DNA of 64,000 bases from Afifella marina DSM 2698 (GCF_900102695.1 NZ_FMVW01000012.1:1-64000), one strand, 5' to 3'; positions 52,518 to 58,277 are shown, counted from the first letter of the stretch. The notes: generated by a model not told the origin, from the letters alone. Numbers and translations are program-made.

Positions 52518-53288
52518 TTGATCCAAGATCCGTTCTTTTATCTGGTGGCGGTTCCGGCCGTCATCATGATCGGGCTTTCCAAGGGCGGCATCGGCGGTGC
52601 CGGGGCGATGCTCGGCGTGCCGCTCGTCACCCTTGCCATCGATCCGGTGCGCGCGGCGGCCATCCTCTTGCCGATCCTCGTCGCCATGGATCTCGTCAGT
52701 CTCTACGCCTGGCGCGGGGTCTATCAGACGAAGAGCCTTGCCATTCTGCTGCCGGGCGCCGCCCTTGGTGTCGGCATCGGCTGGGTGCTCGCCGGCTCGA
52801 TCGGCGAAGAGGAGATCCGCCTCATCGTCGGCGGGATCGGGCTCGTCTTCTCTCTCGATCATTATCTCGGGCATTATTTCGGCGGGGAAGCGAAGCGGGC
52901 GCCGCGCCCGCATCAGCCGGCGAAGGGGATGATCTGGGGTACCGTCGCGGGCTTCACGAGCTTCGTCGCGCATGCCGGCGGGCCGCCATTTCAGATGTAT
53001 ATGCTGCCGCTGCGGCTGCCGCCGCCGGTCTATGCGGGCACGTCCGTGATCTTCTTTGCGGTCGTCAACGCGCTCAAGCTGTTGCCGTATTTCATGCTCG
53101 GACAGTTCTCGGCGGCGAACCTTCAAACCTCCCTGGTTTTGATGCCGCTGGTGCCGGTCGCGACATTGACCGGCGTCTGGCTGGTGAAGGCGGTGTCGCC
53201 GAAGTTCTTCTATGCGCTGAGTTATGCGCTGGTGCTTCTGGTCTCCCTCAAGCTCATCTTCGATGCCGGTATGGCGCTGATGGCCTGA
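52518..53288 (+). CDS. TSUP family permease (TauE/SafE)
   Basis: A 256-residue membrane protein with about eight helices and the two-fold 'GIGGAGAMLGVPLV' / 'FTSFVAHAGGPPFQMYMLP' repeats of the sulfite exporter TauE/SafE family. Substrates are organosulfonates, sulfite or other anions. TTG start 52518. It is convergent with a second TSUP gene of the same size class. Confidence 0.88.
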   Translation: MIQDPFFYLVAVPAVIMIGLSKGGIGGAGAMLGVPLVTLAIDPVRAAAILLPILVAMDLVSLYAWRGVYQTKSLAILLPGAALGVGIGWVLAGSIGEEEIRLIVGGIGLVFSLDHYLGHYFGGEAKRAPRPHQPAKGMIWGTVAGFTSFVAHAGGPPFQMYMLPLRLPPPVYAGTSVIFFAVVNALKLLPYFMLGQFSAANLQTSLVLMPLVPVATLTGVWLVKAVSPKFFYALSYALVLLVSLKLIFDAGMALMA

Positions 53289-53311: not shown

Positions 53312-54046
53312 TCAAAACAGCGCGTCGGCGAAGAGTTTGACGGTGATGACGGCGAGGATCGCGAGGATCAGCCGGTCGAAACTGCCGGGCTTCATGTCGC
53401 GGCCGAGCCATTGGCCGAGGCGCATGCCGAGAAACACCGGCACGAGGGCCGCGATGCTGAGCATGAGGCGCTGCCAGGTGAGGATGCCGGCAAGCGCGAG
53501 CGATGGGAGCTGCGCGACGGCAAAGCTCGTGAAAAGAACCGAGACCGCGAAGACGAATTTCGGACGCTCCAGACGCAGGGCGTTCATGAAGGTGACGCTG
53601 ACCGGAGCGGAGATGCCGGTCGCGCCCTGAAGGGTTCCGGCCAAAAAACCGATGGCCGGGGCGATCGCCGTGGCACGGGCCATTGCGAGCTTCACCTGGG
53701 GGTGCAGGAGGCGGAGCGCGATATAGGCGAGCATGACGAGCGCGAGCCCGAGCGAGAGAAAGCGGGCAGGCAGGCTCGTCAGAAGAAGGGTGCCGGCGGC
53801 AATGCCGATCAGGCTCATCACCACAAGTCGCGGGAGAAAGGGCAGGTCGGCGCTATGGGCGCGGAACCTCCAGACCTGCGAAAGGTTGGCCGTCAGGATC
53901 GGGATGGTCAGGATGGCGATCGCGTAAGGAACGTCGAGAAAAGCCGCAATGCCCGGTATCGCCACGAGCGGCAGTCCCATGCCGGCAACGCCTTTGATGG
54001 TGCCGCCCGCAGCGAGGCAGAAGAAGATGACAAGAAGTTCGTTCAA
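53312..54046 (-). CDS. TSUP family permease (TauE/SafE), second copy
   Basis: A protein of about 244 residues with eight hydrophobic segments and 'GGTIKGVAGMGLPLVAI' plus 'LAGTLQGATGISAPVSVTFM', the TSUP repeat motifs. It is only distantly similar to its convergent neighbour. The start is uncertain; TTG 54046 gives a normal N-terminus, and a hydrophilic extension to TTG 54184 is open. Confidence 0.86.
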   Translation of the reverse strand: MNELLVIFFCLAAGGTIKGVAGMGLPLVAIPGIAAFLDVPYAIAILTIPILTANLSQVWRFRAHSADLPFLPRLVVMSLIGIAAGTLLLTSLPARFLSLGLALVMLAYIALRLLHPQVKLAMARATAIAPAIGFLAGTLQGATGISAPVSVTFMNALRLERPKFVFAVSVLFTSFAVAQLPSLALAGILTWQRLMLSIAALVPVFLGMRLGQWLGRDMKPGSFDRLILAILAVITVKLFADALF

Positions 54047-54254
54047 CGTGGGTCGCTCGTGATGAGTTGTCTCTGGCCTGTCGAATAGGCCGAAGAGGCG
54101 ACCGTTGTCGCTCCACTTGTGTCGCGGGCGGTCGGCAAAGCGGGATATCTTGGAAGTGTTGCCGGCCGGGATATGGTCTGACAAAATGGAGCGAGCTTAG
54201 CGGTTTTTTCATCCTCCCGTCCGATCGTTAGCATGAGAGCATCCGACAGCCAGG

Positions 54255-56543
54255 ATGATGGAGCACGGTTCACACATATATATCGACCGCCGCGCCGAGC
54301 CGGATATCTATATCTCGCTGGTCAATTCCCTCTACAGCTCCATGCGATCTCTCGTCGCAGGGGCGATCGGAGGGACGGCGGCCGTCCTTGTCACGGCGAT
54401 CCAGATCGACGGGTTGCCTCTCTATGTGTGCGCCGCGCTCATTGCCGTTGTCGGCTTCCTTCGCGTGGCCGTCGCCTTTGCCTTCCGCCGACGTGGCGGC
54501 GACAAGCTGCCGGTGGAGCGGCCGGTGCTGTGGGACGTGCTCTACGGCATCGGGGCGTGCGCGTTCTCCTTCCTCCTCGGCGTCTGGTGCTACATCTGTC
54601 TGACGTTCTATGACGATGTGACCGCGCAGCTCGTCGCCGTCTCGGTGACGATCGGTTATTCCGCCGGCATCGCCGGACGCAATGCGGGCCGTCCGCAACT
54701 CGTCTCTCTGCAAATCCTATTTGCCTGTCTGCCGCTCGTCACCGGTTTCGTGGTGCAGGGCGAGCCGCCTTATCTGGCGCTCGGGATGCTTCTCGCTTTC
54801 TTCTTCTGGAGCATGCGCGGCGTTTCGATTTCCATCAGCGAGACGCTGCTTGCGGCATTGCGGGCCGAAAAGGTGATGACGCTGCTTGCGGGGCGTCTGG
54901 AAGCGGCGCTGTCCAGCATGTCGCATGGCGTGCTGATGATCGATGCGGAGCAGAAGCTGCGGGTTCACAATCAAAGGGCGCTCAGTCTTCTCGGTCTTTC
55001 ACCTGAATCGATCCGGCATGGCATGCCGATCAGCGAGCTTGTCCAGGCCTGCGTGCGCGAAGGCGTCTTCTCGCGTTCGGAGCTGAAGCGTTTGCAGGAG
55101 CAGTTCACGGTCGGGCGAACGCTGCAGATCGTCACCAACGACCGGCGCACCATTTCTCTTACCAGCGAGCCGGCGAAGGACGGCGGTTTTGTCATCGTCG
55201 CGGAGGATGTGACGGAGCGCAAACGCACCGAAGCGCGCATCTCCTACATGGCCCATCACGACGAGGTGACGGGGCTGCCCAATCGCGTGCGCCTGAAAGA
55301 GGAGCTGGAGCAGTTCCTGCGCAAGAGCGCCGAGGAAAACTCGGCCTTTGCCGTCTTCTGCGTCGATCTCGATCACTTCAAGAGCGTCAACGATACGCTC
55401 GGCCACCCGGTCGGCGACAGCCTTCTGCGCGCCACGGCGCGGCGGCTTGCCTCCATGACGCGCAAGAGCGACCTTCTCGCCCGCTTCGGCGGCGACGAAT
55501 TCGTGCTTCTCGCCTCAGGCGTCACCGACGCCGAACAGGCGGAGCAATTCGCAACGCGGGTCATCACGGCGTTGTCGCGTCCTTATGCGCTCAACGGGCA
55601 CAGCATCGTTGCCGGCGCGAGCGTCGGTGTCGCCTTCGCGCCCAAGGACGGCTCGAATGCCGACGCCCTCATCAAGAATGCCGACATGGCGCTCTACCGC
55701 GCCAAGGCGAACGGGCGCGGCACGTTCTGCGTCTTCGAGCCGGAAATGGATGTGCGCGCGCAGGAGCGCCGCTCGCTCGAAATGGAATTGCGTAGCGCCT
55801 TCGCCAACGAGGAGCTGGAGCTCTACTATCAGCCGCTCCTCAATGTGCGCAGCCGGACGATCTCCACCTGCGAGGCGCTTTTGCGCTGGCCGCGCGCGGG
55901 GCGGGGGATCGTGTCGCCCGGCGAGTTCATCCCGCTCGCCGAGGAGATGGGGCTGATCGTGGAGATCGGCGACTGGACGCTGGTGCAGGCCTGCCGCCAG
56001 GCGGTGCAATGGCCGCAGCAAATCCGTGTCGCCGTCAACGTCTCGCCGATGCATTTTCGCCGCGGCGACATCGTCCGCTCCGTCGAGGCGGCGCTCAAGG
56101 ATTCCGGGCTGCCGGCCGACCGGCTGGAGATCGAGGTTACGGAATCGGTGCTCTTGGAGCAGACGGAGCGCACGCGTCATGCGCTCGGCGAGCTCGCCGA
56201 GATGGGGATCCGCATCTCGCTCGACGATTTCGGCACCGGCTATTCGAGCCTCGCCTATTTGCAGAACTATCCGTTCCACAAGGTCAAGATCGACCGCTCC
56301 TTCCTCTCCGGGCTCGATGATGATCCGCAGCGTTTGATCATGTTGCGCGGCGTGGCGCGGCTTTCCGCCGAGCTCGGGCTTGCCGTGACGCTCGAAGGCG
56401 TCGAGCGGGACGATCAGCTCGCCATCGTCATGGCGGACGGATACGTCGACGAGGTGCAGGGGTTCCTGATCAGCTGCCCGGTGCCGGCTGAGAAGCTTGG
56501 CCGGCTTTTTGCATCGCGGAAAGAGAAGCAGGCGGCGGCCTAG
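54255..56543 (+). CDS. Membrane-anchored PAS-GGDEF-EAL cyclic di-GMP enzyme
   Basis: A 762-residue bifunctional protein. Residues about 30-205 form six hydrophobic segments; a PAS domain follows (about 210-325), then GGDEF (about 335-500) with 'RFGGDEF' intact near 410 and an RxxD inhibitory site ('RKSD') five residues before it, and EAL (about 510-755) with 'CEALLRW' near 538, 'DDFGTGYSS' near 656 and 'LEGVE'. Both synthesis and breakdown of c-di-GMP look possible. It lies 201 bp upstream of an RpfF-type signal synthase, so it may be the receptor of that signal, as RpfR (PAS-GGDEF-EAL, soluble) is in Burkholderia. Confidence 0.93.
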   Translation: MMEHGSHIYIDRRAEPDIYISLVNSLYSSMRSLVAGAIGGTAAVLVTAIQIDGLPLYVCAALIAVVGFLRVAVAFAFRRRGGDKLPVERPVLWDVLYGIGACAFSFLLGVWCYICLTFYDDVTAQLVAVSVTIGYSAGIAGRNAGRPQLVSLQILFACLPLVTGFVVQGEPPYLALGMLLAFFFWSMRGVSISISETLLAALRAEKVMTLLAGRLEAALSSMSHGVLMIDAEQKLRVHNQRALSLLGLSPESIRHGMPISELVQACVREGVFSRSELKRLQEQFTVGRTLQIVTNDRRTISLTSEPAKDGGFVIVAEDVTERKRTEARISYMAHHDEVTGLPNRVRLKEELEQFLRKSAEENSAFAVFCVDLDHFKSVNDTLGHPVGDSLLRATARRLASMTRKSDLLARFGGDEFVLLASGVTDAEQAEQFATRVITALSRPYALNGHSIVAGASVGVAFAPKDGSNADALIKNADMALYRAKANGRGTFCVFEPEMDVRAQERRSLEMELRSAFANEELELYYQPLLNVRSRTISTCEALLRWPRAGRGIVSPGEFIPLAEEMGLIVEIGDWTLVQACRQAVQWPQQIRVAVNVSPMHFRRGDIVRSVEAALKDSGLPADRLEIEVTESVLLEQTERTRHALGELAEMGIRISLDDFGTGYSSLAYLQNYPFHKVKIDRSFLSGLDDDPQRLIMLRGVARLSAELGLAVTLEGVERDDQLAIVMADGYVDEVQGFLISCPVPAEKLGRLFASRKEKQAAA

Positions 56544-56744
56544 ACCTAGCCACCCCCGGCGGCACTGGACCCAGGAAATCTCAGTCAAATCGCCATTTTG
56601 CGGTGCAGCACGGGTTTTCAATTCACAAGTTAAATGTTAACCTTAACAAAGTGCTACTGGCTTGCCGGTACCCTAAAGTTTATATTAACGTCATGAAGAA
56701 TTTTGTAATAAGTGTCAGTGTTCCTCTGCGGCGGGGGGTGGAAT
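56544..56744 (+). promoter_or_regulatory. AT-rich promoter region of the rpfF-like gene
   Basis: The stretch is far more AT-rich than its neighbours. TGTTAA-CC-TTAACA (56635-56648) is a 6-bp dyad; with another TTAA at 56630 and TATATTAA at 56681 it holds several TTAA motifs, similar to CtrA half sites but not in the TTAA-N7-TTAA spacing. It separates the c-di-GMP enzyme from rpfF, suggesting that rpfF has its own promoter. Confidence 0.45.
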
Positions 56745-57743
56745 ATGGCCAGACTTGAAGCGGCGGCGTGCGACGTGCGCAGCGAAGATATTGTCAGTAA
56801 CGAGCTGAGGGCGCGTACATCGGGTGCGGTCGGCGTCGCGATGCCGGCGAAAGGCTCCGTTGGAAGTGTTCGGGCCGCGATTTCCGAGGTCGCGGAGGAC
56901 GTGCGGGAGGTCGTTCTTTCTTACGAGGCCGAGAATGCGACTTTGTGGTCGACCATGGTGCCGCCCGGACGGCCGTGCTTTACGCGCCGGCTGGTGAGCG
57001 AATACATTCACCTGTTCCAGTCGCTGAATGCCCGCTTCGCAGATGCGGAATCGCTCGCTCTCAAATACATCGTCTATCAATCCGGCACGCCGTCGATCTT
57101 CAGCCTCGGCGGCGATCTCGACCTCTTCTCGCGGTTGATCCGGGCGCGGGACGAGGAGGGGCTGCGCGATTATGCGCATGCCTGCGCCAAGATGACCTAC
57201 CTCAATTCCATCAGCGCCGATCTGCCGATCGTGACGATCGCGCTGGTGCAGGGACAGGCGCTCGGGGGCGGGCTGGAATCGGCGCTGTCGTGCAATCTCA
57301 TCATCGCCGAGAAGAGCGCGACTTTCGGGCTGCCCGAGGTGCTTTTCAATCTCTTCCCCGGAATGGGCGCCTATTCCTATCTGAGCCGCAAGGTGTCGAG
57401 CCGGATCGCGGAAAAGCTGATGCTGTCCGGGCGCACCTATTCGGCGGACGAGATGCTGGAGGCAGGCGTCATCGACGAGGTGGTGGAGGACGGCACCGGT
57501 GAAAAGGCCGTGCGCGACCTGATCGAGCGCTCGCAGCGACGCCACAATGCGCAGGTCGGCGTCTATCGCACGCGCCGCCGCGTCATGCCGCTCAGCTACG
57601 AGGAATTGCGCGACGTCACGGATATTTGGGTCGAATGCGCGCTCGGCATCACAGATCTCGATCTGCGCAAGATGGAGAAGCTGGTGAAAGCCCAGGACCG
57701 GCTCAAGGGCGCCGTGGCCATGCCGGCCGCCGCGCATTCATGA
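56745..57743 (+). CDS. rpfF: RpfF-type DSF signal synthase (crotonase superfamily)
   Basis: A 332-residue crotonase-fold enzyme close to RpfF, which makes cis-2-unsaturated fatty-acid signals (DSF family) from acyl-ACP. Diagnostic: 'FSLGGDLDLFSRLI', 'ALVQGQALGGGLESALSC' and 'GLPEVLFNLFPGMGAYSYL'. Glu178 and Glu198 match the catalytic Glu141/Glu161 of Xanthomonas RpfF with identical 20-residue spacing. The first 55 residues are extra. ATG 56745 chosen (GGGG-rich ribosome site just before). It is followed after 9 bp by a tautomerase gene. Confidence 0.88.
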   Translation: MARLEAAACDVRSEDIVSNELRARTSGAVGVAMPAKGSVGSVRAAISEVAEDVREVVLSYEAENATLWSTMVPPGRPCFTRRLVSEYIHLFQSLNARFADAESLALKYIVYQSGTPSIFSLGGDLDLFSRLIRARDEEGLRDYAHACAKMTYLNSISADLPIVTIALVQGQALGGGLESALSCNLIIAEKSATFGLPEVLFNLFPGMGAYSYLSRKVSSRIAEKLMLSGRTYSADEMLEAGVIDEVVEDGTGEKAVRDLIERSQRRHNAQVGVYRTRRRVMPLSYEELRDVTDIWVECALGITDLDLRKMEKLVKAQDRLKGAVAMPAAAHS

Positions 57744-57752
57744 GGATGATCC

Positions 57753-58277
57753 ATGCCTCTTGCTGAATTGAGACTGACGCGCGGGGCGCTGTCGGACGCA
57801 AAACTCGACATTCTGGCGCGCGATCTGACGGCGATTTTGCTCGAACACCAGGGGGCGCGGCCGGGCAGTGCCGTGGCGCGCTCGATCACGCGTTTGGAGG
57901 TGACGGAGTTCGAGCCGCGCCGCACCTATGTCGGCGGCAATCTCTCCAACGCGCCCTGTTACCGGCTCTCCTACACGGTGCCGCTCGGCGCCCTGAACGA
58001 GGAGAAGAAGCGCTCGCTCGTGGAAAAATCGACGAACGCGATCCTGGCCGCGGAAGGCACGCCTTTCACCGAGGACGACGCCTACCGCGTCTGGTGTCTG
58101 ATCGACGAGGTGCCAGACGGCAATTGGGCGAGCGCCGGCAAGGTCTGGCGCTGGCGCGACATCATGCGCTGGGTCGCCAGGCGCGAGATCGCGGCGCGGC
58201 GACAGGAGCGCGAGGCCGGTGACGGGCAGCTGCCGGAGCGGGAACGCAAGACGGGAAGAGCCGGGATCGCTGCGTGA
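57753..58277 (+). CDS. Tautomerase superfamily protein, two fused 4-OT-like domains
   Basis: A 174-residue protein beginning Met-Pro, so the catalytic Pro-1 of tautomerases is kept. Two similar halves are visible: 'PLAELRLTRGALSDAKLDIL' (from residue 2) and 'PCYRLSYTVPLGALNEEKKR' (from about 67), the second ending 'VWCLIDEVPDGNW', the classical 4-OT pattern. It is therefore a fused dimer unit like CaaD/MIF-size members. A charged tail of 25 residues follows. Co-transcribed with rpfF by spacing; it could isomerise or otherwise process an unsaturated acid. Confidence 0.82.
   Translation: MPLAELRLTRGALSDAKLDILARDLTAILLEHQGARPGSAVARSITRLEVTEFEPRRTYVGGNLSNAPCYRLSYTVPLGALNEEKKRSLVEKSTNAILAAEGTPFTEDDAYRVWCLIDEVPDGNWASAGKVWRWRDIMRWVARREIAARRQEREAGDGQLPERERKTGRAGIAA

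Follow-up and report, generated by a model that had tools for sequence, protein, structure and literature searches.

The rpfF locus of Afifella marina DSM 2698 raises the question of whether a diffusible signal factor (DSF), a cis-2-unsaturated fatty acid, is sensed there by a membrane protein that is itself a cyclic di-GMP (c-di-GMP) enzyme. The locus lies in a stretch of 64,000 nucleotides (GCF_900102695.1 NZ_FMVW01000012.1:1-64000; hereafter, the window). As an earlier sequence-only reading had stated, reading of the open reading frames (ORFs) showed three intact plus-strand genes, encoding a membrane PAS-GGDEF-EAL protein, an RpfF-like crotonase and a two-domain tautomerase. We consider it probable (roughly 0.7) that the locus is a DSF-type module whose receptor would be the membrane protein, acting as a one-component c-di-GMP enzyme. 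This receptor role is well supported, as a prediction from the genomic data described below.

The RpfF synthase and its membrane partner

The best solved relatives of the window crotonase were the RpfF proteins 3m6m, 7zq7, 5fus and 6dgn. It matched 3m6m with an E-value of 2.6e-59 (204 bits), and the best ordinary hydratase reached 1.5e-17 (67 bits, 137 lower). Against the NCBIfam family PRK08788 it scored 351.7 bits (cut-off 177), and against the strict NCBIfam RpfF equivalog 234.9 bits, below the cut-off of 550, indicating that it is a diverged member of the family. Alignment with Xanthomonas and Burkholderia RpfF showed that every DSF-synthase pocket residue checked was kept (G85, G86, D87, L136, G138, E141, E161, P168, G169, M170, W258 and L276, in Xanthomonas campestris pv. 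campestris [Xcc] numbering). These scores and residues ruled out an ordinary enoyl-CoA hydratase and bore out the earlier assignment as RpfF-like. Both catalytic Glu residues were present as claimed; their numbering as 178 and 198 holds only from the ATG at 56745, and in the 343-aa ORF they are residues 189 and 209.

The partner gene was followed in 397 genomes of Hyphomicrobiales, the order of Afifella, drawn evenly from that order. Because the N terminus of the Afifella protein was the query for the membrane family, very diverged members, such as a two-helix protein of Methylorubrum extorquens AM1, were missed. We found rpfF in 54 of the 397 genomes, the membrane PAS-GGDEF-EAL family in 93 and both in 18. 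In 16 of these 18 genomes rpfF adjoined the membrane gene. In G566 both genes lie at contig ends, which is compatible with adjacency, and in G726 the two genes lie apart and rpfF has an RpfC-type partner. A further probable pair, in G607 (L239), is cut by a contig end.

For comparison, we called a locus type A when rpfF stood with an RpfC-like HK-REC-HPT kinase and a REC-PAS-GGDEF-EAL gene, and type B when rpfF adjoined the membrane PAS-GGDEF-EAL gene. By our reading, the 54 rpfF genomes comprised 16 of type B, 2 of probable type B, 29 of type A and 5 with neither kind of partner; in the last 2, an RpfC-like kinase stood with a REC-kinase. Among 121 distinct RpfF loci, 88 had the type A kinase, 18 (the window included) were type B and none had both; the others had neither or ended too early. 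Most of the alphaproteobacterial rpfF loci fetched were of the RpfC type, with rpfF convergent with a set of two genes, one for an HK-REC-HPT hybrid kinase that has the domain layout of RpfC and one for a REC-PAS-GGDEF-EAL protein. The motif R-x-D-x-E-H stood just before the first helix in 37 of 68 type A kinases; in Xanthomonas RpfC, Arg15, Asp17, Ser18, Glu19 and Gln22 are required for DSF sensing (PMC5391125). All six type A genomes used as controls contained the RpfC input domain; none of the 18 type B genomes (16 plus 2 probable) did, indicating that the membrane type replaces RpfC rather than accompanying it.

The two type B genes were arranged in three ways: convergent, with stops 9-58 bp apart (L193-L198, L213); in tandem with rpfF first (L199-L202, with a 4-bp overlap in L200); and in tandem with the receptor gene first, as in Afifella. 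That adjacency was kept despite rearrangement into three orders argues for a functional tie, and is the strongest evidence in this analysis. It also answers the neighbourhood check proposed by the sequence-only reading: the membrane PAS-GGDEF-EAL gene and rpfF are conserved partners in related families. Within the family of Afifella itself, one genus represented by L020/L021 and another, Propylenella (L045), have rpfF with a different partner and lack the tautomerase gene, and G009 encodes a 38%-identical membrane GGDEF-EAL protein without rpfF. The module can be plasmid-borne, since Methylobacterium radiotolerans JCM 2831 carries a convergent pair (MRAD2831_RS61465/RS61470, 12 bp overlap; L290:5890-9222) on plasmid pMRAD01.

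In a tree of the membrane family, the paired members formed three clades that matched the three gene orders, and this result was reproduced with added rows. The tree was rooted on type A REC-PAS-GGDEF-EAL proteins, a distant outgroup that calls for a long-branch warning. Taken at face value with that root, the tree suggests that the pairing is old and that rpfF was lost in a large unpaired clade. An RpfF tree under a simple model put the type B RpfFs in four places. Under a mixture model, an approximately unbiased (AU) test did not reject a single type B clade (p 0.685) and the constrained tree was the more likely one; several independent origins of the pairing are therefore not claimed.

Several other rpfF arrangements were seen. 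On a megaplasmid of M. extorquens AM1 (L291:6360-9202), a widely used laboratory strain, rpfF is convergent with a gene for a 630-aa PAS-GGDEF-EAL protein whose N terminus has only some two membrane helices, so that the pairing exists there in a reduced form. In G552 and G496 (L244:8419-12539, L246:2142-6238), rpfF stands beside an RpfC-like kinase gene and a gene for a REC-containing histidine kinase, which replaces the usual REC-PAS-GGDEF-EAL gene. The RpfF-like partners in G745 (L201:7362-8324, minus strand) and G680 (L202:7144-8124, minus strand) have about 25% identity to Xanthomonas RpfF. G571 and G620 encode, besides an intact RpfF, a short RpfF-like protein of 234 and 233 aa, respectively (L200:7395-8099 and L199:7563-8264, both minus strand), in which the PEVLF catalytic-Glu region is lost; its gene converges on the membrane GGDEF-EAL gene, which lies downstream of the intact rpfF. 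The short protein is possibly a dead paralogue used as a regulator. The RpfF genes nearest to that of Afifella outside the genus (53-57% identity; L010:5036-7855, L011:5965-8849) have no receptor-like neighbour, and the ORF just upstream of them resembles glucose-6-phosphate dehydrogenase by ORF reading only. On a conjugative plasmid of Methylibium petroleiphilum PM1 (L294:5716-8268), an RpfF-like gene lies between genes for an iron-containing redox enzyme and a ferritin, a quite different context.

The membrane protein as candidate receptor

Hydropathy and an AlphaFold2 model (mean pLDDT 89) agreed on six membrane helices in the 762-aa protein, modelled at residues 30-51, 54-79, 90-118, 122-142, 147-168 and 171-221 and preceded by a short helix. 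Two parts of this six-transmembrane (6TM) region were strongly conserved in the 17 rpfF-paired proteins. In the helix ahead of the first membrane helix, L22, V23 and L26 were invariant in 17/17. In the RNAGRP loop, A144, R146 and P147 were likewise invariant in all 17, and 56 of the 58 unpaired proteins had F or Y at position 144. The only unpaired protein outside the unpaired clade, L284, has RNAARP at this place, which shows that the loop is no strict sign of pairing and marks a lineage instead. It is reasonable to regard the loop as a plausible contact site for the signal or for RpfF. The catalytic residues of the GGDEF and EAL domains were retained in nearly all of the 17 paired proteins.

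From these features we propose the following route. RpfF most likely dehydrates and releases 3-hydroxyacyl-acyl carrier protein to give a cis-2-enoic acid, as its conserved residues suggest. The signal would partition into the membrane, where the 6TM domain, the adjoining PAS domain of the neighbour protein, or both would read it. Sensing would shift the balance of the intact GGDEF and EAL domains, and hence the c-di-GMP level, up or down. The membrane protein would thus take the place of the RpfC kinase and the REC-PAS-GGDEF-EAL regulator found in most alphaproteobacterial rpfF loci. Sensing by membrane helices has a precedent in PA1396, whose helices IV and V are needed for the response to DSF (PMC6536496). 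RpfR, in which DSF controls an EAL enzyme, is a precedent for a link from DSF to c-di-GMP (PMC6361424, PMC4504480).

Three observations weigh against this proposal. The paired loci of G745 and G680 carry a degenerate RpfF (E141 changed to D, PGMG motif lost). In the membrane-family tree, a single nested clade without rpfF holds 57 of the 58 unpaired members, so that the receptor fold needs no local synthase and its ligand could differ. Finally, profile comparison by hhalign found no relation between the 6TM domain and the RpfC input domain (probability below 1%), and a DSF-sensing membrane domain common to the two proteins was accordingly rejected. No Pfam or Protein Data Bank (PDB) relative of the 6TM domain was found either, the fold search having matched the PAS part only.

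The most serious alternative, although an unlikely one, is that RpfF makes a DSF-like signal while its PAS-GGDEF-EAL neighbour senses another cue (redox, lipid state or another ligand) and controls the expression or activity of rpfF. It would account for the absence of rpfF from 75 of the 93 genomes that have the membrane family, for the PDB fold search, in which the PAS domain was structurally closest to heme PAS domains and others of non-lipid type, FixL among them, and for the lack of similarity to both RpfR PAS and the input domain of RpfC. However, the membrane partner exactly replaces the RpfC-type sensor, no RpfC input domain is left in those genomes, and adjacency held in three gene orders, all of which count against this alternative. 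Clearly less probable is a non-signalling crotonase, an RpfF-fold enzyme of lipid metabolism (e.g. a membrane-lipid desaturating dehydratase/thioesterase) whose pairing would tie the lipid state of the membrane to c-di-GMP. What RpfF catalyses is fatty-acid chemistry, a signalling role is not readable from sequence, and the tautomerase suggests a metabolic branch, but every synthase pocket residue checked was kept and close RpfF relatives adjoin RpfC-type kinases that bear the DSF-sensor motif R-x-D-x-E-H (residues in PMC5391125). That three unrelated genes are neighbours by chance in Afifella is very improbable as an account of the whole locus: the limitation of the tautomerase adjacency to this genus is in its favour, but adjacency in 16 of 18 genomes, from several families and in three orders, excludes it for the receptor gene and rpfF. 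The tautomerase gene may still be a chance neighbour.

Comparison with known DSF systems

According to reviews from 2015, 2022 and 2026, DSF acts via c-di-GMP in two core systems, RpfC/RpfG and RpfR (PMC4504480, PMC8846402, PMC13220807); RpfR is recorded for Beta- and Gammaproteobacteria (PMC8846402). The type B module resembles the RpfF/RpfR system of Burkholderia, Cronobacter and relatives in having an RpfF-family synthase beside a single PAS-GGDEF-EAL protein with intact GGDEF and EAL domains. The convergent genes of several relatives of the window locus are also like Burkholderia rpfF/rpfR (PMC4504480), whereas the Afifella genes are in tandem. RpfR is soluble and has an N-terminal RpfF-binding domain (PMC6361424); in the membrane protein the N terminus is the 6TM domain instead. 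The PAS piece of RpfR gave no match to the window protein, and RpfR GGDEF-EAL fell outside the membrane family in the tree, in a comparison that used a broken RpfR record read in three annotated pieces and in which RpfR sat on a long branch. A membrane-anchored RpfR was ruled out on these two grounds. The sequence-only reading had proposed an RpfR-like receptor made membrane-bound; a membrane-bound partner of rpfF is what was found, but its PAS and GGDEF-EAL parts are not orthologous to RpfR.

With RpfF/RpfC/RpfG of Xanthomonas and its alphaproteobacterial form, the module shares an RpfF synthase, a membrane sensor and output to c-di-GMP enzymes. It differs in having no kinase or phosphorelay, the sensor and the c-di-GMP enzyme being one protein, and no histidine kinase with an RpfC input domain was found beside rpfF at the window locus. 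Like the sensors PA1396 and CqsS, the protein has a multi-helix membrane domain, which we propose reads a fatty-acid-like signal; unlike it, those sensors are histidine kinases, and the sequence comparison of the 6TM domain was with the RpfC-type input domain only. The earlier description of the locus as an alphaproteobacterial variant needs narrowing: most of the alphaproteobacterial rpfF loci examined are RpfC-type, and loci of the membrane type are the smaller part, seen in our samples in Hyphomicrobiales only.

The module is thus distinct from both RpfC/RpfG and RpfR, and looks like a third, undescribed DSF wiring. In the openly licensed literature, with subscription papers and preprints outside its scope, no description of rpfF paired with a membrane PAS-GGDEF-EAL gene was found. 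We suggest more tentatively, at somewhat less than even odds, that membrane one-component 6TM-PAS-GGDEF-EAL proteins make up a third core type of receptor for DSF across several Hyphomicrobiales families, and that the rpfF-less sister clade may sense the DSF signals of other bacteria. Should the membrane protein prove to be the receptor, it would represent a third architecture of DSF perception, in plant-associated and environmental Hyphomicrobiales, and would give a candidate function to a widespread orphan family of membrane GGDEF-EAL proteins that now has none.

The Afifella locus and its tautomerase gene

The features of the window locus are listed in Table 1. The order receptor gene, rpfF, tautomerase gene was kept in 5/5 Afifella genomes, with 73-94% identity of RpfF to the window protein. 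In the genus, 168 bp separate the receptor gene from rpfF, and 9 to 31 bp separate rpfF from the tautomerase gene; the 9-bp gap reported earlier for the window was found again. The receptor gene and rpfF may have separate promoters. A sigma-70 promoter scan found none, terminator-like sites were at chance level, and an Rfam search gave no match.

Table 1. Features of the DSF-type locus of A. marina DSM 2698 (window coordinates)
Feature	Coordinates	Strand	Basis
Membrane PAS-GGDEF-EAL gene (proposed membrane DSF/c-di-GMP receptor, 762 aa)	54255..56543	+	ORF, Pfam PAS_7/GGDEF/EAL
Short helix ahead of first membrane helix, residues 16-26, motif DIYxSLVNSL	54300..54332	+	AlphaFold2 model
Membrane domain of six helices, from residue 30 to about 195	54342..54839	+	Hydropathy and AlphaFold2 model
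Loop RNAGRP, residues 142-147, between membrane helices 4 and 5	54678..54695	+	Alignment of family proteins
PAS_7 domain, residues 219-326	54909..55232	+	Pfam 2.5e-20; PAS folds in PDB search
GGDEF domain, residues 333-489, with intact GGDEF motif and I-site RxxD	55251..55721	+	Pfam, residue check
EAL domain, residues 511-741, catalytic residues intact	55785..56477	+	Pfam, residue check
DSF-family synthase gene rpfF (343 aa with GTG start; ATG at 56745, the 12th codon, as alternative start)	56712..57743	+	ORF, NCBIfam and PDB matches, residue check
Catalytic Glu codons E189 (Xcc RpfF E141) and E209 (E161)	57276-57278 and 57336-57338	+	Alignment with RpfF 3m6m, 5fus
Tautomerase-superfamily protein with two domains (174 aa), accessory gene specific to Afifella	57753..58277	+	Pfam, model, fold matches

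The tautomerase is the least certain part of the locus. Its identity as a two-domain tautomerase held: the 174-aa protein is a distant member of the Pfam family Tautomerase (9.6e-7), an MP start (N-terminal Pro after Met) is conserved, and the model, of low confidence (pLDDT 60), has two beta-alpha-beta units. The best PDB fold matches of the model included two-domain fused 4-OT, Cg10062 and cis-CaaD. The window protein is like these enzymes in its two beta-alpha-beta units, its N-terminal MP and its structural match; it is unlike them in its low identity (11-24%, with a model at pLDDT 60 and with Pro1 alone checked among the catalytic residues), and the known enzymes have no known link to DSF. 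The substrates of cis-CaaD and Cg10062 are short cis-3-substituted acrylic acids, so that action of the Afifella protein on a cis-2-enoic acid is thinkable.

The suggestion that the tautomerase makes, modifies or breaks the signal nevertheless found no support beyond proximity. Within the family the gene occurs in Afifella only, and no homologue was present at the other rpfF loci examined. In a 385-genome sample of Alphaproteobacteria, recognisable relatives turned up in only 3 further genomes; the relative in G153 sits, by our reading, among catabolic-looking genes. We regard the tautomerase gene as a genus-specific addition and place it outside the definition of the module.

Directly upstream of the three genes lie two genes for TauE/SafE-family membrane transporters (52518-53288, plus strand; 53312-54184, minus strand), which are kept in the other Afifella genomes.

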